Assembly (NCBI GenBank): GCA_026874595.1
Contig: CM049315.1
Span: forward strand, 12,028,664 to 12,092,663
DNA: 64,000 nt
Direction: 5' to 3'
From: Sipunculus nudus
Lineage: Eukaryota > Annelida > Sipuncula > Golfingiida > Sipunculidae
The position numbers and the translations under genes were made by a program. Below, in pieces: positions 12,021 to 60,595 of the stretch (position 1 is the first letter of the stretch; every line of letters begins with the position of its first letter). The notes under the pieces are model-generated. The model had not been told where the DNA came from. It worked only from the letters and a program-made list of their open reading frames with translations, and did not search any database.

Positions 12021-12272
12021 TATATATCTCTGATAGCTTTGTTGTATACAAGACTGGTGGTGCCAGCTACAATCATTTTTGTGATGCATGCACCTATGCC
12101 AGAATTCCAGCAGTGATGTTTGTGTAATTGTTTCTTGTTATAAATTTTTAGTACTTGCATTGTTCATATACATGTTACACATGTACTTTAAAAGGAATGG
12201 TCCAGCATTGAAGCATTATACCTGGTGTATATCCGATTGCACAGGTTCGCATTGGGCCTGTAGGCCTTGTTT

Positions 12273-18800: not shown

Positions 18801-21800
18801 TGCTCCGTGACCGTGCATGATCATCAGTTTTGGAGGAAGTTTTTGGTATATGCCTGTTGTGTGCTTTGGTGTGTTCAGGATGGCCTACTGAGGAGTTCAA
18901 ATACCCCATCTTCAGACCAGTAATGCCTGCATGCTTTGTGGCAGAAGATCTGCAAACAATTATCAAAATTGGATAATTAAGACATTAGTTTTGGGTTAAA
19001 AACATGACAAATTCTATTAGTCATCAAATTTGAAGGGAATCATTATATACTGATTTACAGTTTACTTATTAAAGGTAAGGAAAGATTAAAGTAATGATAA
19101 CAAACAACTGAGTGATGTGTTACATTTAGGGTAGAGTCTGGATCCAGGCATGAAGACAGGGATCTGGGTCCAGACAAGAGCATACAACAAGGGACCTGGA
19201 TCTGTACTTAGTGTATTATACTATTAGGGCCCCAGCTTGTTAATGTAACTACCCTTAAATCTTTGTTTGGTAACCACAGGGTCTTCACAGCAGATAATAA
19301 ATGACATTACTCAGGAGAGAGGATATTTCAACTTCCTACCAGCAAGGATATGGCCACTATACACTGCCAAGATACCTTGTTTTGCCAAGCAACTCTTGCA
19401 TCTGTTTCATGAACAATGAGCAAGCCAGTTGAAATAAACTAATGACTCACTTTTGCTTTATGTGGCACACATAGCACATATGTTGCTCATTTCAAATCAA
19501 ACATTTGCATAACGTCAAAAGGCATTGAGAATCCAGTCAAATAAAGCCTTGTAGTTGTAAGCCCATCTTGTTTCTCATACATGTGGTCTTGTGCACATGG
19601 GGTGTCAACAGTGTGTGTACTTGGTTCATTATATTTGACTGGCAGTACTTAGTGATTAAGGCCCAAATGTGTGCGGACTTTTAATTATTCATTAAAGAGA
19701 TGCCAGAATGGCTCAATGAAGCAAGGTATCTTCGCAGCATGTAGTGGCCAGATCCTTGCAAAATCCGATTTTTGATCTATCAAATTTTGATTTGGATTGA
19801 GATTGGATAAAAAATCCATAAAGTCATTGGATTTAGATTTGATAAAAAATTCATAAAGTCTTGACAGACAAGTGATTTATTGTTGCGTTCTCAGCAGATG
19901 CAAAATCTATGAATTATAAAACTATAAAATGTAACCGTAACCTAAAGAGCACCATGATTTTTAACCATAGTGACCTGTACTAAAATAGTAGAGCCACTAG
20001 TATGTCCAGATGTTGTAATTCTGCAGGTCTCTGAAGCTTACTTGACAAGACGGACATAGTTTCCAGGGAAAACACCATTTTTGCCTGTGCGGAGCTGGGT
20101 GCCCTTGAACCATCCATCCTGGCACTTCTCAGTGACAGTGTAACATTCACCCTTCACAAGCTCGACCTCATCATCCTTTTGTGGCTTGTAGTTGTACAAC
20201 GCCACATAGCTGCAAGCACCAAACACATGATAATACACAACTTGTATCAACAAAGGGCCAACCGAATAAAGCTATATGGTTGCCAAAATTTCAATAATAC
20301 AGAAAAGTTTAGTTGTGCTATAGGTCTCCAGTTGCTGTTTGTTTCTATATAAATGGGTAACATCTAATTTATCTATCAATATATATTTTTCAACTACAAT
20401 GTCTTGTCTTATTTCAACCTGCATATACCAGTTTAATGTCGAGGTAAAATTTTCACTGTATCTTAATGGTTGATCATGGTTGATCACACAAATAATGTAC
20501 ACTTTTTGGCATTAACAAGGGACCCATGGGTCACGGCGCTCAGCTGATCGTGATTGGACTATAAATGTTTCTCCACTGTGATACTATATCGAGTCGATAA
20601 GGCTTATGAAAATCATGGACATGTTGGGCTATTATAAAGGAATGTAATGTAATATGTGAGTAAATGATAAATGAAATTACCTGACTGGTGGATTAATAGA
20701 GTAAAATATAGTGGTTTATTTTTTATTTATTTAGGAGGGGTTGAAAATTGTGATATATTTGAGCAAATATGAATGCAATGACAGCAGTAATAAGCAGTAG
20801 TAGAATGATGATAAGGCTATTTGTTGAAGGATCTAAAGTGTATGGTAGTCTGCAAGCTTTCAATTTGACAGATATGATGTAATGATTATCTATGCTGATG
20901 AAGTGATTTATGAATTTGTGACTGAATGACACAATATCTCTTTAGTCTTGACAAGGTACATTATTGTGAAGCCCACTATGTCTACATATTATACAATATT
21001 GACATAATTTCTGGCATGTACATAGGTACCTATGGACGAATAGTTATACAAAATAGTAAAGTATGAATGTATCTGATTCATCTTGTTCTTGCTTACTGAG
21101 GCTGACTTTGGGATGGGGTTCGGAGAAGGGAAAAGTGAGGGCAGCACGAAGGTGGATGTAGAAATATTCTATTGTAATGTTTTTCATTTATATAAGAATA
21201 TGAACAGCTAAGAGGAAAGGGGCCCTCCTACTTGGTTATAGTAAAGTTCTAAATATATGATTGCAAACTAATACTCTGACAAGACTGTCATGAAGAAAAA
21301 CAGTAAAAGTTTTGATATACTGTGATGCATATGAAAATTTACAGATGGACAGGCAAGTGGACAGAATGGACTAATACCTTTATTTCACTTTCAATGGAAT
21401 AATGCATTTAAGTTTATATATAAGCCTATTTTTTTTAAGCATATCCACTTTTTCCATTAAGAAGTTTTTATCTGAATCATTTTTTTATTTACAGGTTTTA
21501 TAAATTTTTAATAAAAAAAAACTGGAAATATAAGTTAAAATATTAGAACTGTTGCAAAAGTTGCAATCATTATATATACAGAGTAAACAAGGCCTACAGG
21601 CCTAATGCGAACCTGTGCAAAGTTTGGGAGTATGAATGGAGGTTTATTTTTAAAATTTAATATTGATCCTCTTTAAGTCCTGCATATCTGCCTTAGTCAT
21701 TATTATTATAGCAAAATGGACATTTCTGACCTGCAAGTTTCAGACTAGGACATTTTAAAACTAGAATATGGGTAGTCGACAAGCAAATATGTGTATCCGC

Positions 21801-24800
21801 AGAAATCAGAGTGGGACGGGTGAAGTGAGGCATGGATTAAGTGGCAAGGGGAATAGAGTGAGGTGTGTTGCATATTAGCATGGATGTCTGCAGTGTAAAC
21901 TTAAATTTAGGTGGTGCCACCTGTAATAAAATCGAGGAAATTGTCCAGGATATATAAACCTGCAAAATTTCAGGTGGATAAGTCAAACCACTGCTGAGAT
22001 ATGAGTGATTTTATCCCAAGGCAGATGAAAAGATGGACGCTGTGCATAAGTGGTTGCAGGTGGCACCACCAGTTTTGCCTATGATGAAGAGCTATGTGAG
22101 ATCTATACACATGCAAAATTTTGGCCCAATTGGTCTAACGATTCCCGAGATATAAGCTTGGATGTCTGCAGAGTAAACGTGAATGTCGCTGGCGCCACCT
22201 GTCATAAAATCTAAAAGCTGTCCAGGATGTATAAACCTGCAAAATTTCAGGTAGATAATTCAAACCACTTCTGAGATATGAGTGATTTATCCGAAGGCAG
22301 ATGAACAGATGGACACTGTGCATAAATGGTTGCAGGTGGCACCACCAGTATTGCCTATGATGAAGAGCTATGTGAGATCTATACACATGCAAAATTTTGG
22401 CCCAATCGGTCAAACAGTTCCCAAGATATGAGCTTGGAAGTCTGCAGAGTAAACGTGAATGTAGGTGGCGCCACCTGTCATAAAATCGAGAAAGCTGTCC
22501 AGGATGTATAAACCTGCAAAATTTCTGGTGGATAAGTCAAACCACTGCTGAGATATGAGTGATTTTATCCCAAGGCAGATGAACAGATGGATGCTGTGCA
22601 TAAATGGTTGCAGGTGGCGCCACCAGTTTTGCCTATGAAGAAGAAATATGTGAGATCTATCATATGCAAAATTTTGGCCCAATCGGTCAAACAGTTCCCG
22701 AGATATGAGCTTAGATGTCTGTTGAGTAAACGTGAATGTAGGTGGCGCTACCTGTCATAAAATCGAGAAAGCTGTCCAGGATGTATAAACCTGCAAAATT
22801 TCAGGTGGATAAGTCAAACCACTGCTGAGATATGAGTGATTTTATCCCAAGGCAGATGAACAGAAGGATGCTGTGCATAAATGGTTGCAGGTGGCACCAC
22901 CAGTTTTGCCTATGATGAAGAGCTATGTGAGATCTATACACATGCAAAATTTTGGCCCAATTGGTCAAACAGTTCCTGAGGTATGAGCTTGGATGTCTGC
23001 AGAGTACACCTGAAAATTCTGCCAAGTGGTTATGAAGGAGTTCTCCGTAAACCTATGCGGCGATGGCAGCAGCTTTGGCGTCTGACCAAAAACATAGTAT
23101 CTGCAAAACTCTGTTTTGGCGGATACAATGATTGTAGCTGGCACCACCAGTCTTATATACAAGGAAGAGTTAAATAAATATGCCCAATGTCAGACTGATA
23201 TGTCAAAACCCTCCTGTGAAATAAGCAGGGACATACACTGTGCAATAGTTATTGTAGGTGGCGCCACCAGTCTTGTACACTATAAAGCTACCTGATATGT
23301 ATAAACATGCCCAATTTTAGGCTGATGTATCAAATTCCTCTGTAGAAATAAGCAGGTGCATACACTGCAAAAGTCAATGTAGGTGGCACCACCTGTCTTG
23401 TAAATAAGAATACCATCAAAGATGCATAGACAGGTCAAACTTCCCCAGAGTTTGATGCACTGGGCTGACAAGGCTTAGGTGAGTAAGGCAGTTGCCCCCG
23501 AGTGAACTGTGACCAATTGCTGCCTCAAGCTACTGCACTGAATGAACTCTTGACCTGCACCTACCTAGACTGAGTGAACTTTTGACCTGTACCTGGCTGC
23601 ACTGAGTGAACTCTTGACCTGTTGCATAATCTGACACAGTTGGCAGTCTGCCAAAGCTATAAATAGATTCAGGCTGAACTTGGGTGCCAAATATGATGCA
23701 GTGAGCAGTCTGCCAAAGCTATAAATAGAATGCAGCTACTGCACTGAGTGAACTCTTGACCTATACCTGGCTGCACTTCTTCCAATCCTGGCACTGTGCC
23801 AAAACTATTTATAGAGCTGACATCATCTTGGCTAATAGCCAATATCAAGGCACTGAAAATATGCCAATGGTATACCAAGTGCTGCCATCTGTACACAAAA
23901 GTGGTCCCTACTTGAAATAACTTTGAAATTTATTTTTCCAAATACAAAATGCTTTTCAGCTGACTTTTTATAAACAAGGCCTACAGGCCTAATGCGAACC
24001 TGTGCATATGGATATACACCAGGTATAACGCTTCAATGCTGAACCACTACTTTTCATATATATGAACAATGCAAGTACTAAACATCTGAACAAGAAACAA
24101 TACACAAACATCACTGCTGAAATTCTCGCATGGGTGCACACAACACAAAAATTATTGTAGGTGGCACAGTCTTGTATACAACAAAGCTATTTGACATGTA
24201 TAAATATGCCCAATTTCTGGCTGATATATCAAATTCCTCTGTAGAATTAAGCAGGCACATACACTTTGCAAAAGTCATTGCAGATGGCAACACCTGTCTT
24301 GTGAACGAGAAAGCCATTAAAGACCGTAGACAGGTCAGAATAACAGGCCAATACATCAAACTTACCTTGAGTCTGATGCATGGGGCTGACCAGGCTTAGG
24401 TGAGAAAGGCTGTTGCCCCGAGTGTACTGTGACAAATTACTGGCTCAGGCTACTGCACTGAGTGAACTCTTGACCTGCACCTGGCAAGACTGAGTGAACT
24501 TTTGACCTGTACCTGGCTGCACTGAGTGAATTCTTGACCTGTTGCAGTCTGCCAAAGCTATAAATCCAGACTGACCTTTTGCCTGTTGCCAAATCTGAAA
24601 TAGTAGCCACACAATTGCATAAGCTCACAGACTGGCTCCATATGCAGCCCTGAGGGGCATGACACCCATGTGGTGATCACATGATACTCATGATGTGATC
24701 ACATGCTACCCATGAGATGATCACATGCTGCCCATGAGGTGCTCACATGACACCCATGAGGTGATCACATGCCTTGTGCTTGGCTGCACTGATTGAACTG

Positions 24801-27800
24801 TTGACCTATATTTGGCTGCACTGAATGATCTCTTGATCTGTTGCCAAATCTGAAACAGTTGGCAGTTTCTCAACCTATTCAAGAAACATACACAATCTTG
24901 GCCTGTTATGTAACTCTGCTAAAATTTATCAAACACAAACCATTTGAACAAACTTGAGAGGGCTCACCTCTGGGATCATTTCTGTAAATTTCTGACCATT
25001 TACAAGAAGAAGACTTTTAAAGTTTTTTTCAGCTTTTTCCCTGTAAAATCTAAGTAAATGCAGATAGCAAAAATAAGCTGAATCCATCAACATTTATTTT
25101 GTGACAGATAATTGCATAAAATTTGGGGACGGTAGCTCCTGCTATTCCTGAGAAATTATGAGTTAGTGTACAGATGATATCTAATATCATTAATCTACAT
25201 TTTTAAAAGCTTTTAAAAAACATTCTTGTCAATATTTTCCATAGATAACCTGAAACCTAAATGTCTAGAGGCATGATGTAATGGATGCTGATAAACTGGT
25301 GCTAGGCTAGATGTATCTGCTTCACACAGCTAACATGTATGGTAAAATGACTCAATTCAATCTTTATAAATCAGTCAAAATTCATTCTTTGGAACCATAA
25401 AAGACAATTATTATAAGAATTATTCAGGGAATTATTCTTGCAAAATATTAAACAAACTGGCCTCAGTATCATCAGTCAAAAAACGTTTTGTAGGTTTACA
25501 ACTCATATGGGAAAATACAGCAAAATGGCAAAATTCAGCCAAAAATCATTGAACCAAAACCATTTGAACAAACTTGAATTATCAACACCTAAGGATAATT
25601 AACCCTTTACTGTTTACAAGCCACTTAAGAGCACTCAAAATGGGCAACTAGAATGCCATGATATGTATAGATTCTTTCAGGACAAAAATATTGCATATTA
25701 TTTCTAAGTTTCAACGATTTTCAATAATCTTCAGCAAACCCTCTTAGTGGGAACTGTTGAAAATTTGATAAAGATACAAAAAAAGCTTGAAAAGATATGG
25801 CTGTTAGTGTAAATATAAATAGTGTCAGAATTTGTCGGAAATCTAAAATAAATGTAAACAGTAAAGGGTTAATGTGTGAGATTTAAGAATTTGGCCCAGT
25901 GGTTTTTGACAAGAAGATTTTGTAGCCACTTAGCTAAAATGGGCTGTTATGGCATATGACTAAATTCAGCTTCCCATAACTCAGCCAAAAGTCACTGAAC
26001 TGAGACCATTTGAACAAACTTGAATTATCAACATCTAAGAATAATTAATGTGTGTGATTAAAAAATTTGGCCCAGTGGTTTTTGAGAAGAAGATTTTTGT
26101 AGCCACTTAGCTAAAATGGGCTGTTACGGCATATGACTAAATTCAGCTTCCCATACCTTAGCCAAAAGTCAATGAACTGAGACCATTTGAACAAACTTGA
26201 ATTATCAACATCTAAGGATAATTAATGTGTGAGATTTAAGAATTTGGCCCAGTGGTTTTTGAGAAGAAGATTTTTTTTAGCCACTTCACTACAATGAGCT
26301 GCACTGTCATATGACTAAATTTAGCTTCCCATAACTTAGCCAAAAGTCACTGAACTGAGACCATTTGAACAAACTTCAGAAAGCACTACCCTAGGATCAT
26401 TTCTGTGCGATATTAAACAATTTGGCCATATTGTTTCAGAGAAGAAGTTATTTGTAGACTTCAGTATGGGGGCACTGATGACCCCCGTACAAAAAAGGCC
26501 GATGCAGGTGGCGCCACCATTACCTCAATTTCAGATATGACCTATGTGACCAACATTGGCATAAAATTTGGTGAAGATAGCTCAAGCCATTTCTGAGATT
26601 GTAATTTTAGTATGCTTTTTTGGACATATGACCAAGTTCAACTTCCTGTAACTTGGCCAAAAATCACCGAACTTAAACCATTGAACCAACTTGAGAGAGA
26701 TTGTTCCTGAAATCATTTCAGTAAAATATTGGACAATTTGGCTGAACAGATTCGGAGAAGAAGATTTTTTAAGCTTTTTTAGCTTTTTTCCTATAAAATC
26801 TAAGAAAATGCAGTTAGCCAAAAAATAAGCAAAATCTGATAGAGTTTTTTAGATGACTAATTTTATGCATAAAATTTGATGATGCTAATTCTTGCCGTTT
26901 CAAGATAGTATGGGTTAACGTACAGACGACGGACGACGCCACACCATCAAATAAGCTCACAGGTTTGCTAAAAAGAAATCAGGAATACATGTAAAATTAT
27001 AACGGACGCATACTGAATGCAAAATTAAAATACAGATATATCTCATTGATGGCAAATTCTTGAATTAAGTTGAGTAGGGATACCAATAATTAATAATCCA
27101 TGTACAGTTGTCTTTATATAGCCACAGAGAACTGAATATCCATGATTGTAACATTGCTTGGTATGATGAATAACTTAAATCATAAATCTAAATTTTTTAA
27201 AAGCTTTTAAAAAAACTTTCTTGTCAATATTAACCAAAGATAACCTGAAATCTAAATGTCTAGTGGCATGATGTAATAGATGCTGATAAACTGGTGCCAG
27301 GCTAGATGTAACAGCATAACACAGCTAACATATATGGTAAAATGACTCAATTCAATCTCCATAATGCAGCCAAAATCATTCATGTGGAACCATTAATGAC
27401 AATTATTATAAGAATTATTGTAGGGATTATTCTTGTAAAATATTTAACAAACTGGCTTCAGTGGCATCAGTTGGAAAACGTTTCGCAGGTTTATAACTCA
27501 TATATGGGAAAATTCGGCAAAATGGCTAAGTTAAGCTTCCCATAACTCAGCCAAAAATCACTGAACCAAAACCATTTGAAAAAAATTGAATTATCAACAT
27601 CTGAGGATAATTAGTGTGTGAGATTTAAGAATTTGGCCCAGTGGTTTTTGAGAAGATCTTTGTAGCCACTGAGCTAAAATGGGCTGTTATGGCATATGAC
27701 TAAATTCAGCTTCCCATAACTTAGCCAAAAGTCACTGAAATGAGACCATTTGAACAAATTTGAGAAAGCACTACCCTAGGATCCTTTCTGTGTGATATTA

Positions 27801-30800
27801 AACATTTTGGCCATATGGTTTCAGAGAAGAAGTTTTTTGTAGCCCTCAGTGTGATACAGGCACTGATGACCCTGTACAAAAAAGGCCGATGCAGGTGGCG
27901 CCACCATTACCTCAATTTCAGATATGACCTATGTGACCAACATTGGCATATAATTTGGTGGTGATAGCTCCAGCCATTTCTGAGATTTAAATTTATATAT
28001 GCTTTTTTGCACAGTTAACAAAGTTCAACCTCCTAAAACTCGGCTAAAAATCTCCGAACTGGAACCATTCGAACAAACTTGAGAAAGATTGTTCCAGGGA
28101 TCATTTCTGTGAAATATTTGACAATTTGGCTGGACAGTTTCGGAAAAGAAGATTTTTAAAGCTTTTTAAGCTTTTCCCCTATAAAATCAAAGAAAATGCA
28201 GTAAGAAAAAAAATAAACAAAATCCTATATAGTTTTTTGGATGACTAATTATTTGCAATAAATTTGGTGATGCTAGCTCCTGCCGTTTTTGAGATAGCTA
28301 TTGTTAACGTACAGACAACGCACGACGGACGCTGCCGCACCATCGCATAAGCTCACAGATTCGCTAAAAACTGAAACTATAAGTTAAAATATTAGAATTG
28401 TTGCAAAAGTTGCAATCATCATATATCCAGAGTGTAGCTCATATTGGGTCATATTATGCATACACATATATTTTATTATTTTTAAATCATAAATGTTTAA
28501 ACTGAATTTAAAAGAAAATAATGCCACAACATGGCATCTACAAGAATATTCCTTGAATCACTATTAAAAAGTTTTGCACATTGGAGTTTTCAGTACATGC
28601 TTAATTTTATTCACCAAAATAAAATAAAAGATTCAGTAAATTTGATAAAATAAAACATCTTTTCAAATGAAGTATACACACTGTTGGTTGAATGAGGGAC
28701 AAACAATATCATTGTGCTAATTACTATCCCAGTTTGAATTTATTACTGGAATTAATAGTCAATTTCACACCTGGTGAAGTTTTACTCTTCTGAAGTAAGG
28801 AATTACTTATCTGATGAACATCCACACTTTCATAGCAATCCCCCACTTTGTGGATACAATTAAATGTACACTTTAATCATTATAACCCTGGTGGTACAAT
28901 ACAAAATCTAAAATGTAGCATAGCCTAGAATAAGAATGAATCAAATACAGAAAATAATAACATTCATCTAGTTTATGCACCATTGGGGGGGGGGGGGGGG
29001 AGTGCAGGGCAGAGAGTAAGCCTGCTGGTAGTTGCCAAGCTGAGCCAAGGCAAGCTGCCTGGGGTGGGTTACATTATGCAAGTGAAGGCTGTACTACTAG
29101 GTGGGCTAGATGTAAACAACACTTGACAAGGTGTATGAAAACGTGAATAAAAGCTATTCTTTCCAATCAATTTCTTTGAAATTTCAGATTTTAAAAGATT
29201 AAATCCTTATGTATATATGCTGTGAAAATTAAATCAACAGTGACAAAGTTGGACAAAATTTAAGGTATTGAATTTTTATTTATGCTAATAACTTGAAAAA
29301 TTTGCAAAATTCAGATCTAATTTTGGGTAAACAATTGAATCTTATTAAATAAAGTTATATTCCTGAAAAAAAGTCTCTATAGGTTCAGCAATTCTCATGT
29401 TAGGTGAGTAAATATATTTCCTGATTTAAAAAAAAATTGCATTATATTTTGGCCCATAACTTCAAAAATAATACCCAATACTGACCTAATTTTTGGTATG
29501 TTCATAGAAAATGTATGAAAGAAAGTGAATACTAAATATGATCAAAAACGGATCAGTGGTTTTGATATTAGGCAGCCTTGAAGTGTAACAATGGCTTTTT
29601 TTATGGAAAACGGAGGTTTTTCCTTAATATCTCGAAGGAACGAAGTCCTAATGACCCAATTTTCGGTATGGTAGGAGTTTTTGGGGACATCTAAAAGTAA
29701 GCCAACAGCCTGAGGAGCATAGAGATGTGCACTGAATGACCTACAGTCATCAAAGTGGACTGCTTGACAATGTAAGGGAATACAACAAGAGCCTCCAAAA
29801 AAATTCAATAACTAGCCTAATTTTGCAGCTTTTATTTTTAAATTTCAGATTTTTACAGATTAAATCCTTATGTATACATGCTGTGAAAATTAAATCCACA
29901 GTACTTACAGGAAAAAAACGTGCGGTGGCCAAAGTTGAGCAAAATTTAAGGTACCAATTTTATATTTTTGCCAATATTTAAAAAATTAACAGATTTTGAT
30001 CTAATTTTTTGTATACAATTATATTTTGATTAATTAAAGTTGTATTACTGAAAAAAGTCCCTACTTTTAACACTTTTGGTCTTAAGTGACCAAATATCTT
30101 CCTGATTTTTTTACAAAGTCCATTATGTTTGGGCCCATAACTTTTTAAAATTAAATAAAACTGACTTAATATCTGGCATGTACATAGGCACTATACAGAG
30201 GAATATTTATGGTAAATATGAAGAAAACCAGATAAGTGGTTTTGATATTAGGCAGTCCTGAAGTGTAAAAATAGATTTCTAATAAAAAATTGAGGTTTTT
30301 CCTTAATATCTCGAAGGAACAAAGTCCAATTGACCCAATTTTCGGCATGGTAGGAGATTTTGGGGACATCTAACTGTATGCCGAATTTCAGATTCGTAGG
30401 TCCAACGTTGTCGAAACGTGCCAGTCTTATGGAAGGACATCCAGACGGACGGACGACGGACAATGGACCACGACTATATCTCAGATAACTTATAGTCAGC
30501 TGAGCTAAAAATGATGATAAATAATAATTTGTCACTGTTTAAGATATTGCATCCTATACACAGATGGTTGACATATAATGCTGGAAAGAATTTGCAAGTC
30601 CATATTCATTAAGACTAGACAGGGTCAGGAGATATAGGGCTCTATAGCATATCTTAATTAATGATGAATTTGATTTTGAACTCTGGTCTCACACTTACAT
30701 CATGGCTGGAGCAGTGCTGAGCCAGGCCTGTCCCATCTTGGAAGGTTCTGTCACTGCCTGTAATGAAACCTACATTACTGTATGTCCTCTATTTATGGTC

Positions 30801-33800
30801 GAATATCAAATAATAACTGTGTTCAAACTCAAGAACCATCAAGGATCTAAAGCAAAGTTTAAACACTCAAATGCACTTTGCACATTCTGCCTGGAGTCAA
30901 AATTTCAGATTTCAATAGGTGATTTCAATACTTTAAGTTTCACTGTACTTAGTTTTTGGAAAAAGCTTCATAAAACCAACAATGTAGCTGAAATCAGATT
31001 CACTACAATACACAGAAAAATGTGGTAACTTTAGATGTGGACCTGTATGCAAAACATTTGCATAAACTTATTTCCAAAAGGACAATTCTTGAGATTTTTA
31101 TGGTATGGTATTTGATATTTCTCACTGAAACTATAGAATAACATGAAATACGTACTCTAGATGGTGTTGGGAAATTCATGTGCATGATGTTAAGAGGTAA
31201 TCTGCCTTACCAAAATATATGTATTTTTAAGTCAAAGGCTTATGTATCTTTGAGACTCAGGGTCCGTTCTTTTGTCTTCCTGGAGACCATACCATTTGTT
31301 TTACTTAAGCATGACACTGTGCACAACACAGGAAAGATTGATCCTGGCACAGGTATCCAAAATTTAATGGATTCTTCCAGGGGGGTTACCCTAACCCTCC
31401 ACAAACTTTCACCAAAATCTGTCCATAAATTTGTTTGCAAATTGACAAACCAACCAAGAAGAAAATATAATACCTTGCCACCTGACAGATTTATAATAAT
31501 AAGGTCTTTTAATTAAACAAGGCCTACAGGCCTAATGCGAACCTGTGCATTGGGAAATACACCAGGTATAATGCTTAAATGCTGGACCATTACTTTTCAT
31601 GTATATGAACAATGCAAGTACTAAACATTTTGAATAAGAAATAATTACACAAACATCACTGCTGAAATTCTGGCATGGGTGCACACAAGACAAAAATGAT
31701 TCTAGCTGGCACCACCAGTCTTGTATACAACAAAGCTATCAGAGATATACACATATGCCAATTTTCAGACTGATATATCAAATCCCTCCTGAGAAATAAG
31801 CAGGGACACACATTGTGCAAAAATTACTGTAGGTAGCACCACCAGTCTTGTATACGATAAAGCTATCCGATATGTATAAATATGCCCAATTTCAGGCTGA
31901 TATATCAAATTCCTCTATAGAAATAAGCAGGCACATACACTGTGCAAAAGTCAATGTACGTGGCACCACCTGTCTTGTAAATGAAAATACCATCAAAGAC
32001 GCAAAGACAGGTAAAAATATCAGTCCAATACATCAAACTTCCCCACAGTTTGATGCACTGGGCTGACAAATTAAGGCTTAGGTGAGTAAAGCAGTTGCCC
32101 CTGAGTGACCTGTGACAAATTGTTGCCTAAAGCTACTGCACTGAGTGAACTCTTGACCTGCACCTGGCTAGACTGAGTGAACATTTGACCTGTACCTGGC
32201 TGCACTGAGTGAACTCTTGACCTGTTGCATAATCTGACACAGCTAGCAGTCTGCCAAAGCTATAAATAGATTCAGGCTGAACTTTGATGCCAAATATGAT
32301 GCAGTGAGCAGTCTGCAAAGCTATAAATAGAATGCAGCTACTGCACTGAGTTAACTCTTGACCTATACCTGGCTGCACTTCTTCCAATCCTGGCACTGTG
32401 CCAAAACTATTTATAGAGCTGACATCATCATGGCTAATGGCCAACATCAAGGCACTGGCAATCTGCCAATGGAAACCAAGTGCTGCCATATGCACACAAA
32501 AGTGGTCCCTACTGGAAATAACTTTGAAATTTATTTTCCCAATACAAAATGCTTTTTTTTTCAGACTTTTTATAAAAAAAGAAATCAGGAATATATGTAA
32601 AATAATACAGATGCATACTGAATGCAAAATTAAAAATACTGATATATCTCATTGATGGCAAATTCTTGAATTAAGTTGAGTAGGGATACCAATAATTTAT
32701 AATCCACGTACAGTTGTCTTTATATAGCCACAAAGAGCTGAATATCCATAATTGTAACAATGCCTGGTATGATGAATAACTTAAATCATAAATCTAAATT
32801 TTTTAAAAGCTTTTAAAAAAACTTTCTTGTCAATATTAACCAAAGATAACCTGAAATCTAAATGTCAAGTGGCATGATGTAATAGATGCTGATAAACTGG
32901 TGCCAGGCTAGATGTAACAGCATCACACAGCTAACATATATGATAAAATGACTCAATTCAATCTCCATAATTCAGCCAAAAATCATTCATGTTGAACCAT
33001 TAATGACAAATATTATAAGAATTATTGTAGGAATTATTCTTGTAAAATATTTAACAAACTTGCTTCAGTGGCATCAGTTGAAAAACGTTTCGCAGGTTTA
33101 TAACTCATATATGGGAAAATTCGGCAAAATGGCTAAGTTAAGCTTCCCATAACTCAGCCAAAAATCACTGAACCAAAACCATTTGAACAAACTTGAATTA
33201 TCAACATCTGAGGATAATTAGTGTGTGAGATTTAAGAATTTGGCCCAGTGGTTTTTGAGAAGATCTTTGTAGCCACTGAGCTAAAATGGGCTGTTATGGC
33301 ATATGACTAAATTCAGCTTCCCATAACTTAGCCAAAAGTCAATGAAATGAGACCATTTGAACAAACTTGAGAAAGCACTACCCTAGGATCATTTCTGTGC
33401 GATATTAAACATTTTGGCCATATGGTTTCAGAGAAGAAGTTTTTTGTAGCCCTCAGTGTGATACAGGCACTGATGACCCTGTACAAACAAGTGACCCATG
33501 GGTCATGACGCTCAGCTGACTGGGAAGAGATTTGCAAAAGGAAATTTTATCATCTGAATGGTAGTATATAATCATTCAACTGAAGCATCAAACAGATTAA
33601 CCAACAGGCTGAGATTATGTCTGTATTAATATATCTCATAAATAGAGAAAAAATGAGTAAACTCATAACTGGCTCCACCAGTCTGCAGAAACTAATAAAA
33701 ACACTTAATGGTCAATATCCATGCAAAGAAGCATGGTGGTCTCTGGATTAGTTGTTCAGATACTTCAGCTTTTGTATCAAATTTTCCATTATTCTGAGGG

Positions 33801-42800: not shown

Positions 42801-45800
42801 TTAAATATAAATATAATTTATCAATGAAAACAAAGTTTCCAATAAAGTATCATAAAGAAATATTATTTATTACAATACAATTTTTACAGCCGAGTTATTC
42901 TTTGTTAATGAAAGCACATCACTTGTCCTTCAAATGTACAACTGTTCATACATTGCACAAATCAAGAAATTACTATTCTTAAATATATATACAGAATTGA
43001 AAGCTCAACAGATACTTCTGAATAAACAGTATATTGAAGACAGGTTATACTGATCAGCAGAACAAAATCTATTACTTCTTGATGACTTTATAGGAAATAA
43101 CCTTTTTGAATAAAATATGGATATATTCCATTTTCACTTGGGTAAAACTGGACATCTGGTCATCCTCAGTTTAATTTTTGTTAATCAAAGCCGCTGTCTT
43201 CTTCCTGTGATATACTTGTGCTATCCTTCTTTTCTGTATTTAACCAGTTATAAAGCTTTTCAGTGATAAATACAAACACACAGGCTAATTTCCACTGTAT
43301 TTTAAACAGATGATTAAATGCCTTTTAGGAGGCCCTTTACTCACAATCACAATCTTGTCTAGTAAAATTTAAAGTCCCAATGGATTTCAGTGTTGAATAT
43401 GACATACACAAATACCGATTCTTTAAAGGTGTAGCATAGCCCCTCATGTCATATACCTACATGTTGTCAGTAGGGAATACCAGGAAATGATGCTAGGACC
43501 TGTTTACAGATCAGGAAAAAGCCTCGACCTATGTCAACATCTATGTCCACACAGAATCCGTGAAATGCAAAGTTCAGTATCACATTTGGAACAACAGCAG
43601 TATATGACTCAGCATTTGACAATTATGAATCAAGTTATTATATGTAATCTTATTCTTATTAATACGTAATTAAAAATAAAACCAGGATGATTATTGGTCA
43701 TCAGGACAGCAAAGAATGATGGCTGTGAGACAGACCCACAATTAGCGTTATACATGTTTATTAATAGTATTGATGATGTCTTTTCCAGGAAACAACTTTT
43801 TTATTTGTTTTGTAAAAGAGTCAATAAGTGAGAGGATTTTATCAAGGTATTCTGCTTGGTAAAGGTGACTTCATCATGGCTTTTATTTGAAATAATTTAA
43901 TTAACAATTCCTGCATGTTTTAACCAAGTAATTAGCAACAGATCTTTGATGACAGACTTGTTTTAAGTTGATTTACCACATGAATAATTGCAAAGCTTCC
44001 TTTCTCTCAGGGCTGATGACATCCTTCCTGTAAAATCTATTTTCATTTTTCATATTAATATTTGCTTTTATTCTTTATAAACTTGTTCACCCTTATCAAC
44101 TTACCTTATGGAAGGTCAGGCAGTCCTTTTCATTCTGGTCGTTAATCACGAAGTCATAAAGGGCTTTGCATATGGGAATTTCCTGCGGAAGCGGTGTAAT
44201 AACCTGGTGGAGAAAAACAGAACTAATCTTCCTTGATGTCACTTTAATCCCCTGGAGCAATGGTTATTTTTTTAATGAAACACGCAATGATTTCACACCA
44301 CAAACGGACCTGAGAAAAGCGGGCCATGACTAATTCATGAAGATAGTTATCTCAGTGTGAAATTCAAAACAGGATTTACTTCAAACCATGGTTGATTAAT
44401 AAGAGTTATTAATACCATTAATTATTAAAGTTAGCTGCTTAAAGCTTAGAAATTTTTACACTTCCTTTCCTCAAAACCACAGTTGATTAATAAAAGTAAT
44501 TAATATCATTAATTTACAAAGCTGGTTGCAAGATGCTGAGAAATTTAGATACTGCTTTGTAAGTGGTCATAACTAGAAGAGGGTGCTGAATGCCCTAAAA
44601 TAATGTAAAAATGTATGAATCAAACATAATTTATGAATATATTAAAAAAATAAATTTCCATCTTCTCTTTCAGATTATAGTCATATAATAAATTAACCTG
44701 ATATGAAGGCTGGCATGATCCACACAATTTACCTGACCTGATTTTTGGTCACATTTGCATCAAAAGAACATGTTGACATTAGGTTGTAATCTGAATGAGC
44801 CCTAATGAAATATAAATCAAAGGTCAAGGACAAAACAATCTGATGCCTAATTTAGCAGGTGTTCTATCATGTCGCCACTATTTCAAAACTAGAATACGGG
44901 TAGTCGACAAGCGACTACGTGTATCCGCCAAAATCAGAGAAGGACGGGTGAAGTGAGGCATGGATTGAGTGGCAAGGGGATACAGAGTTACATGTGTTAA
45001 ATATTAGAATGGATCTCTGCCACATAAACATGATTGTAGGTGGCGCCACCTGTTATTTGAACGAGAAACTATCCAAGATATATACACATGCAAAATTTCA
45101 TGTGGCAAAGTCAAACCACTGTAGAGATATGAGTGATTTTATCCCACAGCAGACAAACAGATGGACGCTGTGCAAAAATGGCTGCAGGTGGCGCCACCAT
45201 ATTTGTTCATGTTATAAAGCTATCCAAGGGCTACATTTGTGTAAAAAAATTTTCCTGATTGGTTGAATGAGTCTGGAGATATAAGCATGGATGTCTCGTC
45301 GTGAACGTGAATGTAGGTGGCGCCACCTGTCATAAAATCAAGAAAGCTATGCGGGATGTATAAGCATGCTGAATTTCAGGTAATTTGGTCAAACCACTGC
45401 AGAGATATGAGTGATTTTAACCAAAGACAGACAAACAGATGGACGCTGTGCAAAAATGGCTGCAGGTGGTGCCACCATTTTTTGTGTATGTTATAAAGCT
45501 ATCCAAGGGCTACATTTGTGTAAATTCTTTTTCCTGATTGGTCAAACGGTTCCCGAGATATGAGTTTGGATGTCTGCAGTGTTAACATGAATGTATGTGG
45601 CGCCACCTGTCAGAAAATCAAGAAAGCTATCTTGGATGTATAAACATGCCGAATTTTAGGTGAATTAGTCAAACCACTGCAGAGATGTGAGTGATTTTAA
45701 CCCCAGGCAGATGAACAAATGGACACTGTGCAAACATGGTTGCAGGTGGCGCCACCTTTTGTTGTGTATGTTATAAAGCTATCCAAGGGCTACATTTGTG

Positions 45801-52179: not shown

Positions 52180-52475
52180 CAAACACACTTGGCATTCCAC
52201 TGTGACCTGAACAGGTGGCTGGGCCACACTGATGAAGTGGGACCTTCTGTGCATTCACTTATATTTACCCATATTATGAGGTTCATGCATGCATAAGTGG
52301 CTGTGCATTGGTGAATATTCCTTGATAATGAGGGATCTGGAGAAGATGCTGGATTAACATCAAAATCTAACTGATTTTTCCTTGGTAAATTCCCAAAATT
52401 CTCTGAAAAATTCATGAGTGTCCATTAATGATTGTGTGATTTATGTTGTGAACAAACACAAAAACACACACAAAT
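52180..52475 (-). repeat. Dispersed repeat, member 1 (inverted partner at 62015-62260)
   Basis: On the - strand this shares TCAAGGAATATTCAC, TAGATTTTG, CACTTATGCA and AATATGGG in the same order and spacing as 62015-62260 on the + strand. The frames through both read similar peptides (RNIHxCxxTYA, DFxV), but the similarity is seen at DNA level and need not be coding. Confidence 0.7.
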
Positions 52476-53899: not shown

Positions 53900-56199
53900 A
53901 CTAGACATTTCTTGGCACCGCAGGTGCCAGAGTATCCCCAGACATAGTAGGCCCCCCCCCCCCCTTTAAGAACAGGCCCCAAATTTTGGCAGCATATATT
54001 GTTTCTTCCATCTAACAATCCACAATCTTGTTGAAGATGTTGGTCCTGTGACCTTGATTGTTTTAAAGATGTGTCCTGTGACCTTGACCTTTGACCTCAT
54101 GACCCCAAAATCAATTTGGGTCTTGCTTTTCCAATGGGACATATGCAAGTCAAGTTTGAAATCTATACATCAATAAAGCAGGAATTATCATCCAGAAACT
54201 AATTTTTGGACAGATGGCTCCTGTGACCTTCACCTTTGACCTTGTGACCTCAAAATTGATAGTGTTCTTCCTCTCTTGGCAGGTGAACTATATGTGCAAG
54301 ATGAAAGATCTGAGATGAATTGTTTGGCTGAAAATGCATCCACAATCTTTATAAAGAGATTTCCTGTGACCTTGACCTTTGACCTCATGACCCCAAAATA
54401 AATTTGGGTCTTGCTTTTCCAATGGGACATATACAAGTCAAGTTTGAAATCCATACATGAATAAAAGCAGGAATTATCATCCAGAAACTAATTTTTGGAT
54501 AGATGGCTCCTGTGACCTTCACCTTTGACCTTGTGACCTCAAATTCCATAGGAGTCTTCCACTCTTGGCAGGTGAACTATATGTGCAAGATGAAAGATCT
54601 CATATGAATTTTTTGGCTGAAATTGCATCCACAACCTTTTTAAAGAGGTTTCCTGTGACCTTGACCTTTGACCTCATGACCCCAAAATCCATTCGGGTCT
54701 TGCTTTTCCAATGGGTCAAATACAAGTCAAGTTTGAAATCCGTACATCAATTAAAGAAGGAATTATCATCAAGAAACTAATTTTTGGACAGATAGCTCCT
54801 GTGGCCTTGACCTTTGACCTTGTGACCCCAAAATTTATATGGATTATCCACTATTGGCAAGTGAGCTATATATTCAAGAGGGAAGACCTGGGATGAAAGT
54901 TTGGCTTAAAATGCATCCACATCTTTTTAAAGATGTGTCCTGTGACCTTGACCTTTGACCTCATGACCCCAAAATCAATTTGGGTCTTGCTTTTCCAATG
55001 GGACATATACAAGTCAAGTTTGAAATCCATACATCAATAAAAGCAGGAATTATCATCCAGAAACTAATTTTTGGACAGATGGCTCCTGTGACCTTCACCT
55101 TTGACCTTGTGACCTCAAAATTGATAGGGGTTTTCCACTCTTGGCAGGTGAACTATATGTGCAAGATGAAAGCTCTGAGATGAAATGTTTGGCTGAAAAT
55201 GCATCCACAATCTTTTTAAAGAGATTTCCTGTGACCTTGACCTTTGACCTCATGACCCCAAAATCAATTCCGGTCTTGCTTTTCCAATGGGTCAAATACA
55301 AGTCAAGTTTGAAATCCATACATCAATAAAAGAAGGAATTATCATCCAGAAACTAATTTTTGGACAGATAGCTCCTCTGGCCTTGACCTTTGACCTTGTG
55401 ACCCCAAAATGTATATGGATCATCCACTATTGGCAAGTGAGCTATATATTCAAGATGAAAGACCTGGGATGAAAGTTTGGCTTAAAATGCATCCACAGTA
55501 TATATTAAAATGCCAGTCCAGTGACCTTGACCTTTGACCTCATGACCCTAGAACCTATAGGGTTCTTACTTTAGTGGTGGGCCATACATAAGTCATGTTT
55601 GAAATCCATATGGCTATCAACACTGGAGATATCATAAGAGGTGTGTGATTTTCACCATATATGGCAATATTCAAGGTCAAGGCCACTATCATAGGAAAGG
55701 TCATGACCCCAATGTAAATAAACATCATCCCATAACCCATACCTATGTATATGCATAATATAAAAGAAATCTGTCCATTAGTTTTTGACTTATAATGCTC
55801 ACAGTACTGTAAGGTGGCAATTTTGGGGGTATTAAATGGCATGAAAACAAGTAAAGAATAATAGGTGGCGCCACCAGTTTCTGGAACATGACAACCCTAT
55901 CCATGATCTTCCATCAACTTGATTTTGGGATAAATCCATGCAAGATTTCTTGAGATATTAAAGAATTTGTGTTATTTTCCCCAAAATTGGACCTATTCAA
56001 GGTCAAGGACACTCTCCTAGTAAAGGTCATGACCTCATTTTAAATAGGCGTCGTCCTCTTACCCATATCTATACATATACTAAGTTTGGTATAGTTCCAT
56101 GAAATATTTTTTGGGTTATTGCGCCAACAAGATTTATATGCGGCGGCGGAGGGACCGGTATGAAAACATAGTATCCCCCGACTTTGTCTGGGGATACAA
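53900..56199 (+). mobile_element. HER2 hairpin-ended repeat with AGGTCA-type half-site arrays
   Basis: Starts ACTAGACATTTCTT, hairpin GGCACCGCAGGTGCC, then GTATCCCCAGAC. It ends CATAGTATCCCCCGACTTTG, then TCTGGGGATACAA. GTATCCCCAGAC and GTCTGGGGATAC are exact complements. GCGGCGGCGGAGG precedes the end, as in HER1. The interior has about five units of roughly 287 bases, each with CCTTGACCTTTGACCTCATG and a second cluster CCTTCACCTTTGACCTTGTG. One GGTGGCGCCACC lies at 55863. A C-run is at 53951. The flanks are A and T. It is non-coding. Confidence 0.88.
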
Positions 56200-57550
56200 T
56201 TAAATTTCTGGAACCATCTGTTGGTTCATTAGAAATACAAAGGTTCTAAAAACTTGTAACATCTAATAATGTTGATGTATTTTTTTCTGATAGGATAAAG
56301 CAGCAGTTTCAATAAATATAATGTAAAGCATGATCAAAGGGTACACAACAGAAACTTTAGTGATTTTCTCAGCGTGTCCTGTTTATTTCCTAACAGGCCC
56401 TAATCATGAAAGTTTTCATTCATTCATTGAAGATTTTAAGCTATGGTAGCAGACCCCTGTTGAATGCAACCATGGAGGCACTTTCTCGGCTTTCACATTT
56501 CCTTTTAGCCACTAAAATGTAATGTACAGTGATCTGTATCTAACAAATCTTATTCCCTGAGGGTATAAGAGCTTTGTGATATTTTTAACTGCACGATGAT
56601 CCCCAATTATTGGATCACCAGCGTTTCTGACTATAATTATGTCTGAAGACCCAAAAGAGAAGTAATATCATGCCAGGCTCGCCAGGGCAGCATGACGGTA
56701 ATGAGAAATAATGGGGAAAACAGGAAAGAACCAAGTCTGATAATGGATAGAAAACATTTGTACGTGAGCCAGTAATCATGCCTATGGTGGAAAATGATGA
56801 TCGGGTCTCTACACCGATCACCTTCAACTGAGCAAAACACGGAGTGCTTAAGTCCCATGGGCATACTGACTGTCATGCTGGGAACGCTTTTATTTCAATT
56901 TGATGCCAATATGGCTCCTGATACAACTAATTGGATGATGACTTGAAAAGGCATTTCATTTGGATTGTTCACCTTAATAGCCCCAAAAAGCCAGGCCACG
57001 CTCTGTATGTAAGATGATCCATTTAAAAAAAAAATCTACTTCTGACCTGGAGCTCATGCTGAGATATCCAATGATTCGCTGCACTTGATTTCAAATGGAC
57101 CATTTAAGACCAGCACAGAAGGCTTTACTGTTAAAAAGAATGACTGCATGTGACTGCAAGACAGCCAGTGAAAGGTGAAATGTGGAAACAGTGGTAATGA
57201 ACAGTCAAAGGGGTTTCACTTTCCAAATTTCCTAATTATCTTGTGCAGAAATTTAAAAAGCTAAAACTGTAATGCTTAATTACCATGACTTTCAGATGGC
57301 ATATGTATGCTTACTATAAAATTTTATACACACATGATTTTACACAACTATACTTATTTTCATATTTTCATTTACATTCTTGAGTTTAACAGAGTTGACA
57401 AATTTAAATTTTGTTACCATACATTTGAAAGTGAATCAGTGACCATAAAAAAAATCTTAAGACGTGGTCTAAACTCTAGATTCCTCTTGCACTGACTTTA
57501 AACAAAATATGCCATGACCTGAAATGTAACACGGGTTTCATCATAATTTA
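56200..57550 (-). other. Large 5' intron, unique sequence
   Basis: No recognised exon or repeat. Confidence 0.35.
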
Positions 57551-60500
57551 AAACAAGGGACCCATGGGTCACTGTGCTAAGCTGAAGTTGACCTTGAAGG
57601 TAAAAATCTAAAATATTATCAAATGGTGATAAAGTGTAAGAGGAAGAGGTAATATAGGCCATGGTTGGTTTATATGATCGGTTTGTACTGATGAGCAAGA
57701 AATTGTTGCAAATAATATTTTGTGACCTGACCATGTGTTTCCAAATGTTGAAACTGAAGCATGTGAGCAGTTTGTGAAAAAATGATCTGTACTATTACTA
57801 AGATCATTAGTTGGCTTTTTAATTAACTGTTTTTTTCTATATATTATTAAGTATATATGTATTTTTTTATGAAATGTATACAGTTGAAATATAACTAATA
57901 AACAACATACATACAGGGCAAACAAAGCCTGATCTCCAATTCTGCTGAGGCAGGAAAATAATGAACAAATGTTTGTATTAAATCCTCATTTTTTTATCAC
58001 ATCAATTTTTTTTTATTATAAGTTTATATTTTTATTCATTTCCAATGTAACATATATATCTGAATATAAAAGTTGATTAATAATTCTCAATTGCATCATC
58101 ATAAATCTCAATCCTGTTAAATAATACCACATCATGCATACAAATACTTATTTATTTTTTACCACAAAAATATATCTTTTAAATCTGCATAAAAAAAAAT
58201 AAATATCTTAAAATAATACTTGATTTAGATTTCACAATTTTAAATTGTGTCTTTATTTATCCATAATGTGCTTCATATTTTATGAATTTAAGCATACTTG
58301 TGGGTAATTATATCTGTTAAAATCATTTAATAGAAAATTGATTTCTGTAAAAATGCTACATTAACACAACATGGCATCTTCTGGATTACACCTTGAATTA
58401 CTTTTTCAAGGAAAGTTTTTGTATATTGGAGTGGAAACAGCACAACGATTAAGGAGATACAGTGAAAACAATAACAACTAGAATACGGATAGTCAACCAG
58501 CGACTACATGTATCTGCCAAAATCAGAGTGGAATGGTTGAAGTGAGGCATGGATTGAGTGGCAAGAGGAAATAGAGTGTGGTGTGTTGCATAATATCATG
58601 GATGTCTGCAGCCGAAATGTGTATGTAGGTGCACCACCTGTCATAAAATCACGAAAGCTATCCAAGATGTCTAAATATGCAAAATTTTAGGCAGAGAAGT
58701 CAAACCACTGCAAAGATATGAGTGATTTTACCATGGCAGACAAACAGACGGACGCTGTGCAAAAATGGTTGGAGGTGGCAGCACCATTTTTTCCTATGAT
58801 AAAGAGCTATGTGAGATCTATACACATGCAAAATTTTAGCCCAATCGGTCAAACAGTTCCCAAGATACAAGCCTTGATGTCTGCAGCATAAACATAAAAG
58901 TAGGTGGCGCCACCTGCCAAAAAATCGAGAAGGCTATCCAAGATGTATAAACATGCAAAATTTTGGGCAGGTAAGTCAAACCATTGCAAACATATAAGGG
59001 ATTTTATTCCATGGCAGACAAACAGACGGACGCTGTGCAAAAATTGTTGCAGGTGGCGCCACCAGTTTTGCCTATGATAAAGAGCTATGTGAGATCTATA
59101 CACATGCAAAATTTTGGCCCAATCAGTCAAACGGTTCCAGAGTTATGAGCTTGGATGTCTGCAGCGTAAACGTGAATGTAGGTGGCGCCACCTGTCATAA
59201 AATCAAGATAGCTGTCCAGGATGTTAACACATGCAAAACTTCAGGTGGATAAGTCCAACCAATCCAGAGATATGAGTTATTTTATCCCAAGGCAGATGAA
59301 CAGATGGACGCTGTGCAAAAATGGTTGCAGGTGGTGCACCATTTTTATGTATGTTATAAAGCTATCCAAGGGCTACATTTGTGCAAAAATTTTTTCTGAT
59401 CGGTCAAACGGTTCCCGAGATATGTGGGTTAATGTGTCAAAACAGATGCACAGATGGATGCAGAGAGCAGAGGAAAGGTCAGAGGTCAAAACGAAATCGG
59501 GGCGCAGCAGTTCACATGTGGCCCAAATATAATCCTTGGTTTCGTAAAATTCCACATAGCGATTACGGAGGAGTTCTCCGGACACCTACGCGGCAGCAGC
59601 GGTGGCCTGAAAACATAGTATCTGCAAAACTCTGTTTTGGCGGAAACAATTACTGCATAACACTTGGTGGGTTGGGTTTGCGGGGGGGGGGGGGGGGGGG
59701 GGGGAATTGGGGTGGTGATATGAGAATAACTGTACACCTGTCACAGCAGGGGATCTCCCCCAGTGACTTTAACAAATCAGAAACCCTGGCATAGCTGACT
59801 TCTAGTGAACTAGAGTGGGACCCTGCATCTGTAATCTGTAATCAAAGCAAATGACTACAATAGATCCTCAAGAAAAAAATCAATAACAAGCCTAATTTTC
59901 AAGCTTTTATTTTCAAATTTCAGATTTAAACAAATTAAATACTTATGTTTTCATGCTGTGAAAATTAAATCAATTGTACTTACAGGAAAAAAATGTACCA
60001 TGGTCAAAGTTGGGCAATTTTTATGGTACTGATTTTATTTTTATGCTAATAACTGAAAAAAAGTAACAAATTTCAGATCTAATTTTGGGTTAAAAACATA
60101 ATCTTAATTAAAAATAGATATATACTTGGGAAAATAGACTCTAGTTTCAAATTTTTCATGTTAAGTGAATATGTTAAGTAAATATTTTTCCTGATCTTTT
60201 ACAAAGTCCATTATGTTTGGGCCCATAACTTACACAAATTATACTTAACAGACGTAATTTCTGGCATGTTTATAGGAACTATATTGAGGTATATTAATGG
60301 TAAACATGAGGAAAAACAGATGAATGGTTTTGATATATGGCAGTCCTGAAGTTTAAAAGTAGGTTTTTAATAAAAAATTGAGGTTTTTCTTAATTTCTCA
60401 AAAGGAGCAAAGTCGCAAAGACCCAGTTTTCGGCTTAGTAGGAGATCTTGGGGACATCTAACATTATGCCAAATTTTGGATTCCCGAGTTTTACAGTTTC

Positions 60501-60595
60501 AAAACGTACCACATCTACGGACAGACAGATGGACAGACTACGGACAATGGACCACGACTAAAGCTCAGATGATTTATAGTCAGCTGAGCTAAAAA
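57551..60595 (+). mobile_element. HER3 copy hosting HER1-D
   Basis: Starts AAACAAGGGACCCATGGGTC, then ACTGTGCTAAGCTGA (a diverged motif). It ends AAGCTCAG ... CAGCTGAGCTAAAAA at 60595. The segment after the nested HER1 (about 59870-60590) matches 29780-30511. A 24-base G-run is at about 59681-59704. Confidence 0.75.
58477..59649 (+). mobile_element. HER1 copy D, diverged and shorter, nested in HER3
   Basis: Starts ACTAGAATACGGATAGTCAA and ends GTATCTGCAAAACTCTG, then TTTTGGCGGAAACAA. It is flanked by A and T. There are about three to four internal units with palindromes at 58903, 59053 and 59177. Substitutions in the 5' hairpin and the end suggest an older copy than C. Confidence 0.85.

Follow-up and report, generated by a model that had tools for sequence, protein, structure and literature searches.

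What kind of mobile element gave rise to the four repeat families, HER1 to HER4, that recur across 64,000 nucleotides of the Sipunculus nudus genome (the whole stretch analysed, hereafter the window)? A first-pass annotation had proposed rolling-circle mobilisation with structure-based ends and had named HINEs as the closest known design, and both proposals hold when the elements are read on the reverse strand. We assign HER1–HER4 with high confidence to HINEs, the non-autonomous members of the Helentrons (rolling-circle transposons of Helitron2 type), which depend on Helentron proteins acting in trans.

The hairpins, partner motifs and ends quoted for the four families were all found again in the window. 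The HER1 hairpin occurs at four places (≤3 mismatches), the HER2 hairpin at one (≤2), the HER3 palindrome at four (≤1) and the HER4 motif at four distinct places (≤2), with shuffle-control means of 0.00 to 0.14. Genome-wide (1.43 Gb), the 3' modules number 6,307 for HER1 (≤1 mismatch), 5,180 for HER2 (≤2), 11,828 for HER3 (exact) and 8,052 for HER4 (≤1), and each reversed control pattern gave 0 matches. Scanned de novo with exact 11-mers, the window returned seven matches, namely HER1, HER2, HER3, HER4 and three others, with a 5' hairpin in HER1, HER2 and HER3 and none in HER4. Twenty order-2 Markov resamples of the window gave totals of 0–7 matches per resample against the seven real ones, and the class with hairpins, three in the window, appeared four times in all over the 20 resamples and at most twice at once. 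The 11-mer scan alone is modest support; the genome copy numbers are decisive. Rfam yielded no matches at gathering scores, and a 29-bp array is also present among the window repeats.

The orientation chosen by the first-pass annotation was rejected, as the published HINE layout appears on the other strand only. On that strand, the families run from a T-rich 5' end through a subTIR and inverted repeat, a microsatellite and satellite-like tandem repeats to a 3' subTIR, a palindrome and a terminus of CTAG or CTTG before a T (CTAG/T, CTTG/T), HER4 being the exception in that the 5' hairpin is absent. This anatomy fits the HINE and Helitron2 layouts as described in PMC4067079, PMC7492417 and PMC3627910, and on it we base the assignment of HER1–HER4 to HINEs. 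The motif once labelled a 5' hairpin is real and was placed on the wrong strand, as it is the 3' palindrome in HINE orientation. In that orientation, the window contains the following copies:

2160..12270, + strand: HER4 copy with 5' and 3' modules, holding HER1, HER3 and LINE sequence
4936..6658, + strand: HER1 copy with 279-bp tandem repeats and a CTAG/T 3' end
8796..11867, + strand: HER3 copy with a CTTG/T 3' end
20515..21587, − strand: 3' portion of a HER3 copy that HER4 interrupts
21587..28370, − strand: HER4 copy within an A/T run of HER3, the empty site being given by uninterrupted HER3 copies
21760..23128, − strand: HER1 copy nested in HER4
23974..26974, − strand: further HER4 copy, read as lying inside the first on inferred end pairing
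28366..30511, − strand: HER3 copy, 5' part, ending in TTTTTAGC and the subTIR
31517..35894, − strand: HER4 copy
33487..35418, − strand: HER3 copy with 335-bp tandem repeats
44888..46630, − strand: HER1 copy, intact at both ends, with 280-bp tandem repeats
53900..56199, − strand: HER2 copy, intact at both ends, with 289-bp tandem repeats
57553..60595, − strand: HER3 copy
58477..59649, − strand: HER1 copy nested in HER3

The HER3 copy at 20515 is broken by HER4 and resumes at 28366. In this one insertion, for which empty sites are known, the target is T-rich and no target duplication is recognisable; HER3 loci likewise have a T after their CTTG end, few sites in all. Outside the elements, T exceeds A in the window to the left of 20.5 kb and A exceeds T to the right.

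The subTIR pairs are exact over 10–13 bp, compared with a Helentron/HINE criterion of approximately 11–15 bp, at the limit of which HER3 lies with 10–11 bp. They begin about two bases from the 5' end in HER1 and HER2 and about six in HER3 and HER4, and lie 20–33 bases from the 3' end; in all four families, the 3' palindrome sits between the 3' subTIR and the terminus, and its distance to the CTxGT end is 12, 13, 6 and 3 nt in HER1, HER2, HER3 and HER4, respectively. At the opposite end, a second hairpin is formed in HER1, HER2 and HER3 by pairing of the terminal subTIR with an inverted repeat immediately internal to it, with DNA folding z scores of −6.0, −5.1 and −4.8 (one copy each), and such a 5' hairpin is unsupported in HER4 (z +0.8, one copy). 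Folded alone, the 3' palindromes score modestly (z −2.1, −2.7, +0.6 and −1.3 for HER1 to HER4). The claim that these ends are not CTRR is correct for HER3 and HER4, which end in CTTG/T (T follows directly in eight of eight HER3 loci), and fails for HER1 and HER2, whose CTAG/T is a CTRR end. CTTG has itself been reported as the 3' terminus of certain maize Helitrons and Helraiser insertions (PMC4778049).

Two other classes fit these ends poorly. Canonical Helitrons (Helitron1) have 5'-TC, CTRR-3', no inverted repeats and insertion at A/T, and the HER families instead carry 5' T-runs and subTIRs, the CTAG 3' end of HER1 and HER2 being the sole point of agreement. That HER1–HER4 are ordinary TIR transposons or MITEs we regard as extremely improbable: both ends do carry short inverted repeats, and bivalve 'Pearl' elements were formerly called MITEs, as recounted in PMC7492417, yet the repeats are asymmetric rather than flush (approximately two or six bases from the 5' end against 20–33 from the 3' end), the single insertion examined has no target duplication, and for HER3 the idea is already contradicted by a RepHel partner.

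The first-pass annotation had suggested a search for autonomous relatives sharing the same ends, and this succeeded for HER3. Full-length elements of approximately 14.9 kb, with coding sequence for Rep, a PIF1 helicase and an endonuclease and matched to HER3 by sequence, can probably move it. Element B (copy C17) has a single open frame, 2,342 codons long, in which Helitron_like_N (4e-27) and PIF1 (5e-23) domains occur together with an HxH motif and an Exo_endo_phos match (3e-5) slightly below Pfam's cut-off; the N-terminus of element B bears a Herpes_teg_N-like domain, and RepHel family A has an OTU domain. The three B copies compared (C17, C10 and C5) start at TTTTTAGCTCAGCTGAC, preceded by unrelated flanks, and their homology ends right after the 3' palindrome and CTTGT, so that they share both the 5' start and the 3' end type of HER3. 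The C10 copy has one mismatch in the palindrome, and a second, inner HER3-type 5' module in the B copies points to a composite 5' region.

Beyond these copies, the HER3-type 3' module was found in sense orientation in 11 of the 26 RepHel 3' sides fetched, 3.8–4.7 kb past the Rep match and at a near-constant distance within each family; with 11,828 exact modules across the 1.43-Gb genome, chance alone would place one in a given orientation in roughly 1% of 3-kb pieces. The last 36 bases of the HER3 copy at 20515 agree with family C at 34 positions, the best of 5,000 random 36-mers from the window reaching 21, and the copy at 33487..35418 is identical to the autonomous C5 copy at 58 of its first 60 bases and to element B at 33 of its last 36. 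Over the last 60 bases, the four HER3 copies each agree with their best autonomous copy at 39–44 positions, which is below the published 80% subfamily criterion and hence places the partners in the same family, not the same subfamily. In family B' (four loci), the palindrome is kept by a two-sided change from GACCCATGGGTC to GGCCCATGGGCC. Such upkeep of complementarity between stem and partner is already known from Helitron2, for which PMC3627910 describes compensatory changes and sets out an end-point model.

For HER1, HER2 and HER4, no such relative was found: of the 26 RepHel 3' sides fetched, a 3' end was identified in 13, none of which ends in their modules, and in seven of the 26 the terminus was not found in the fetched stretch (L048, L049, L061, L063, L067, L068 and L069). 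Family A, which accounts for 23 of 30 fetched Rep loci, was considered and rejected as their partner, as the one end reached matches no HER family. Two 99%-identical copies of family A stop at the inverted repeat GCTTGCGGAAAT...ATTTCCGGCAAGC just before AA, which we read as the putative 5' end of a Helentron whose ORF runs antisense. These missing partners, along with subTIRs and palindromes wholly unlike those of HER3, could mean that HER1, HER2 and HER4 belong to a separate single-strand system, IS200/605-like with Y1 or linked to Fanzor, and that HER3 alone is a Helentron. We consider this very unlikely, given that the layout, the T-rich 5' end and the CTAG/T or CTTG/T 3' end are common to all families. 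Moreover, a Rep-bearing family with a CTAGT end exists in the same genome: the two loci of family D, 98.7% alike over 773 bases, have Rep matches and endonuclease-like motifs and end in a palindrome and CTAGT where homology stops, the end type of HER1 and HER2. Both CTAGT and CTTGT ends also coexist within RepHel family B'. The first-pass suggestion that these families may form a separate, perhaps IS200/605-like, single-strand group is unsupported, in view of the HINE/Helitron2 anatomy and of HER3 ends on RepHel-endonuclease elements. The HER families themselves are ordinary HINEs, members of a kind already described.

As HINEs, HER1–HER4 would be mobilised in trans by a Helentron HUH Rep, PIF1 helicase and endonuclease; for HER3, full-length RepHel elements share both ends. 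Following the literature, Rep would nick the 5' end, the strand would then be displaced as a single strand, and the 3' palindrome would terminate the event, pairing of the 5' and 3' subTIRs opening the 5' hairpin as a stop signal. Insertion would be into T-rich DNA and leave no recognisable target duplication.

Insertion strand tends to be common to unrelated families within approximately 100–200 kb, as if set regionally, on the one contig covered (C1; first 100 listed 3' modules per family). Among the matches listed there, families agree in strand in 38 of 40 cross-family pairs less than 10 kb apart, in 269 of 356 pairs at 100–200 kb and in 55–57% beyond 300 kb, and the nearest HER1–HER3 module within 20 kb predicts the strand of HER4 in 41 of 44 cases. 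HER3 copies of different spacer subtype, again among the matches listed, agree in 83 of 100 pairs at 20–100 kb versus 64% far apart. A weaker nearest-neighbour test that preceded the distance-based one found that 13 to 163 of 2,000 rotations of the strand labels reached the observed value.

The pattern on this single contig suggests that strand choice is coupled to replication or to transcription. A regional cue, most simply fork direction exposing the single-stranded lagging-strand template, may set the strand of rolling-circle insertion in eukaryotes, making Helentron copies a fossil map of fork polarity by analogy with bacterial IS200/605; we offer this tentatively, at somewhat short of even chances. 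That the agreement instead reflects transcription direction, selection inside genes, or tandem or nested duplication is close to an even prospect. Nesting contributes below 10–15 kb, as in the window and in element B, blocks of approximately 100–200 kb could be gene-sized, and TA skew in the flanks, which could signal polarity, did not reach significance (positive in 16 of 24, p 0.15; one of the 25 flanks was too short to use). Against this, unrelated families and HER3 spacer subtypes agree beyond the reach of nesting, a one-strand run of 30 HER3 and 16 HER4 sites over about 1.1 Mb (among the matches listed, C1) would require many co-oriented genes, and LINE-type RT sites agree with HER sites in only 8 of 18 cases, a small control that followed an earlier LINE pattern too rare to serve (40 sites). 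The regional agreement touches on an issue that PMC4778049 raises for Helraiser, namely where eukaryotic rolling-circle transposases obtain single-stranded DNA. Should the blocks turn out to follow replication, the orientation of Helentrons would be a free map of fork direction, with tens of thousands of copies recording fork polarity in an animal genome; if they follow transcription, another targeting route would be shown.

In IS200/IS605, as described in PMC5371812, element orientation likewise follows a regional cue, there the direction of replication, but the transposase is a bacterial single-strand enzyme and the likeness to HER drawn here is one of orientation. Helitron2 (PMC3627910) likewise has a hairpin at each end, terminal inverted repeats that are asymmetric, and compensatory changes, and its 3' ATIR distance of 20–30 nt fits the 20–33 nt of the HER 3' subTIRs better than the 38–60 of the mite Helentron (PMC4067079); it differs in that the HER3 partner has a C-terminal endonuclease, the mark of Helentrons. 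The Helentron/DINE-1/HINE group described in PMC4067079 has subTIRs, an inverted repeat, a 3' stem-loop, a T-rich target and, as for HER3, a RepHel-endonuclease partner with shared ends, whereas the Herpes_teg_N-like domain of element B and the OTU domain of family A set the elements here apart. Cg_HINE of Crassostrea gigas (PMC7492417) resembles the HER families in layout, with subTIRs of 11–12 bp, an adjacent inverted repeat, satellite-like central repeats, a 3' subTIR and palindrome, TT insertion without TSD and a GTCY/GTCC-type microsatellite also seen in HER3. According to that study, none of 10 autonomous elements was relatable to the oyster HINEs; the link of HER3 to RepHel-endonuclease elements by both ends, as judged from sequence matches, was not achievable there.

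Every motif quoted in the first-pass annotation, which had described four repeat families (HER1-HER4) with a 5' hairpin and a 3' partner motif, was found in the window sequence. Pattern searches of the 1.43-Gb genome holding the window recovered 6,307 (HER1), 5,180 (HER2), 11,828 (HER3) and 8,052 (HER4) 3' modules, while the backwards-read control pattern of each gave 0 matches, so these motifs are not rare accidents. For a 687-base piece of HER3, the genome holds at least 40 copies (40 of 859 candidates scored), the best 40 being 97-98% identical, the window's own copy aside.

Read on the opposite strand, the families share one layout: a T-rich 5' end, a subterminal inverted repeat (subTIR), an inverted repeat, a microsatellite, tandem repeats, the 3' subTIR, a palindrome and a terminus, which is CTAG in HER1/2 and CTTG in HER3/4, each followed by T. 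The microsatellite is CCG-type in HER1/2 and GTCC/GTCY-type in HER3, and the tandem-repeat unit measures approximately 278 bp (HER1), 289 bp (HER2) or 335 bp (the HER3 copy at 33487). HER1, HER2 and HER3 each have a well-folding 5' hairpin; folding does not support one in HER4. Such layouts are set out for Helentrons and their non-autonomous HINEs (PMC4067079), oyster Cg_HINE (PMC7492417) and Helitron2 (PMC3627910), and fungal Helitron2 (PMC5148889) agrees with them. At 21587, HER4 is inserted into an A/T run of HER3 that is 5-6 long in three of the uninterrupted copies shown, with no target duplication distinguishable from the run. By their structure, HER1, HER2 and HER4 classify as HINEs, and HER1-HER4 are new members of this known kind rather than the distinct single-strand group that had been suggested. 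The window also contains a 29-bp tandem repeat (37170-38993; 63 copies, 95% matches) and, at 2601-7116 on the minus strand, LINE fragments with RVT_1 and an endonuclease-like match slightly below cut-off, which lie inside HER4 and are apparently split by HER1.

With 150 of 195 candidates scored, the genome shows at least 143 matches to the Helitron Rep profile PF14214, and 14 lie within open frames of 1,124-2,426 codons. For 26 of these RepHel loci we retrieved the 3' side, and 11 carry a terminal HER3-type module in sense:

Family B: C17, C10, C5, C9 and C1
Family B': four loci
Family C: two loci

Two others (family D) share a palindrome unlike the HER3 type and a CTAGT end, six are A-type (five by clustering, L073 by protein likeness), and no terminus was found in seven. 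The proposed search for autonomous relatives with the same ends succeeded for HER3, through element B, and found no partner for HER1, HER2 or HER4 among the 13 of the 26 3' sides whose 3' end was identified. Three copies of element B start at the HER3 5' terminus with unrelated upstream flanks, and homology among copies ceases at the HER3 3' terminus; the C17 copy is approximately 14.9 kb long. The element B frame encodes a Herpes_teg_N-like domain at its N-terminus, the Rep and PIF1 domains, and an endonuclease domain that scores slightly below Pfam's cut-off. Compared by sequence with solved structures, it matches PIF1 helicases (best 9e-24) and Helraiser in its helicase part (2e-7), while its N-terminal part matches chain 8add_A (2e-10). 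Endonuclease-like motifs also lie upstream of the ends in B', C and D (six loci scanned).

The window HER3 copy at 33487-35418 is identical to the C5 copy at 58 of its first 60 bases and to element B at 33 of its last 36, with tandem repeats approximately 74-86% identical. HER3 is linked to autonomous Helentrons; because only 39-44 of the last 60 bases are identical, HER3 and these RepHel copies are relatives in one family, not deletion derivatives of those very copies.

In L042:1-5874, element B has a PF04843-like herpesvirus tegument N-terminal region in place of the OTU protease of family A, an abundant RepHel-endonuclease family (L039-L040, L070) whose ORF is seemingly antisense to its own Helentron-like terminus. 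Three RepHel copies (L044, L057, L062) have a second HER3-type 3' end 45-590 bases past the first in the same orientation, reflecting either nested or tandem insertion or read-through.

Within the HER3-type elements, the B' palindrome is altered on both arms, probably in a single event, and this covariation is therefore modest evidence for structure under selection; broken palindromes exist (C10 copy, L003, L061). CTAGT and CTTGT interchange inside both B' and C, which joins the two end classes that the first-pass annotation had separated.

HER1-HER4 insertions, unrelated families included, share a common strand over approximately 100-200 kb, both on contig C1 of this genome and in the window (2160-60595). 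All three window elements at 2-12 kb lie on one strand and all ten at 20-61 kb, nested ones included, on the other. Strand is uniform in seven of the eight other fetched stretches listed with more than one module, three of the seven being element B copies with the same nested HER1; L061 is the exception. For contig C1 we took the first 100 zero-mismatch sites each of HER1-HER3, covering 61 Mb (HER1), 50 Mb (HER2) and 6.7 Mb (HER3). The listed HER3 sites form 18 strand runs against 35.3 expected (reached in 0 of 100,000 shuffles). Among listed pairs closer than 100 kb, strand agrees in 28/36 for HER1-HER2, 41/42 for HER2-HER3 and 35/44 for HER1-HER3, values reached by 4, 1 and 37 of 2,000 position rotations, respectively; a nearest-neighbour version is weaker (13 to 163 of 2,000). 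Within families, also below 100 kb, the figures are 164/196 (HER3), 26/33 (HER2) and only 11/16 (HER1). HER4 sites (19.5 Mb of C1), listed after this result as a fresh test, match the strand of the nearest HER1-HER3 site in 23/24 cases within 10 kb, 41/44 within 20 kb, 63/70 within 50 kb and 74/87 within 100 kb (rotations at 0-100 kb: HER1 23, HER2 18 and HER3 93 of 2,000).

Same-strand pairs by distance, six cross-family combinations pooled
Below 10 kb: 38/40
10-20 kb: 46/51
20-50 kb: 104/123
50-100 kb: 156/201
100-200 kb: 269/356
200-300 kb: 202/342
300-500 kb: 321/586
0.5-1 Mb: 938/1,635

Since 78 of the 100 listed HER3 sites lie on one strand, agreement at far distances exceeds one half; HER1-HER3 pairs at 100-200 kb (17/36) are an exception to the regional agreement. 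Local duplication would not account for a shared orientation of unrelated families 20-200 kb apart. In a small control of mixed LINE families (42 reverse-transcriptase motifs below 51 Mb of C1), strand matched the nearest HER site in 8/18 cases within 50 kb and 11/24 within 100 kb; the same measure within 50 kb gives 28/33 for HER1, 31/35 for HER2 and 63/70 for HER4. TA skew in the flanks of elements, taken as a possible polarity signal, is positive in 16 of 24 and not significant (p 0.15). In the window, TA skew outside elements is +0.053 at 1-20500 and -0.039 at 20500-64000, its sign flipping as element orientation does.

The simplest cause of the regional agreement would be replication-fork direction; transcription direction setting the strand is a possible alternative. 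In a literature search, none of the listed titles or abstract openings describes such agreement for Helitrons or Helentrons; the pattern merits genome-wide testing. The authors of Helraiser suggest that the single-stranded DNA used could come from the lagging strand or, alternatively, from supercoiling (PMC4778049). The proposal of replication-fork direction is made by analogy with IS200/605 elements, in which orientation tracks replication (reviewed in PMC5371812).
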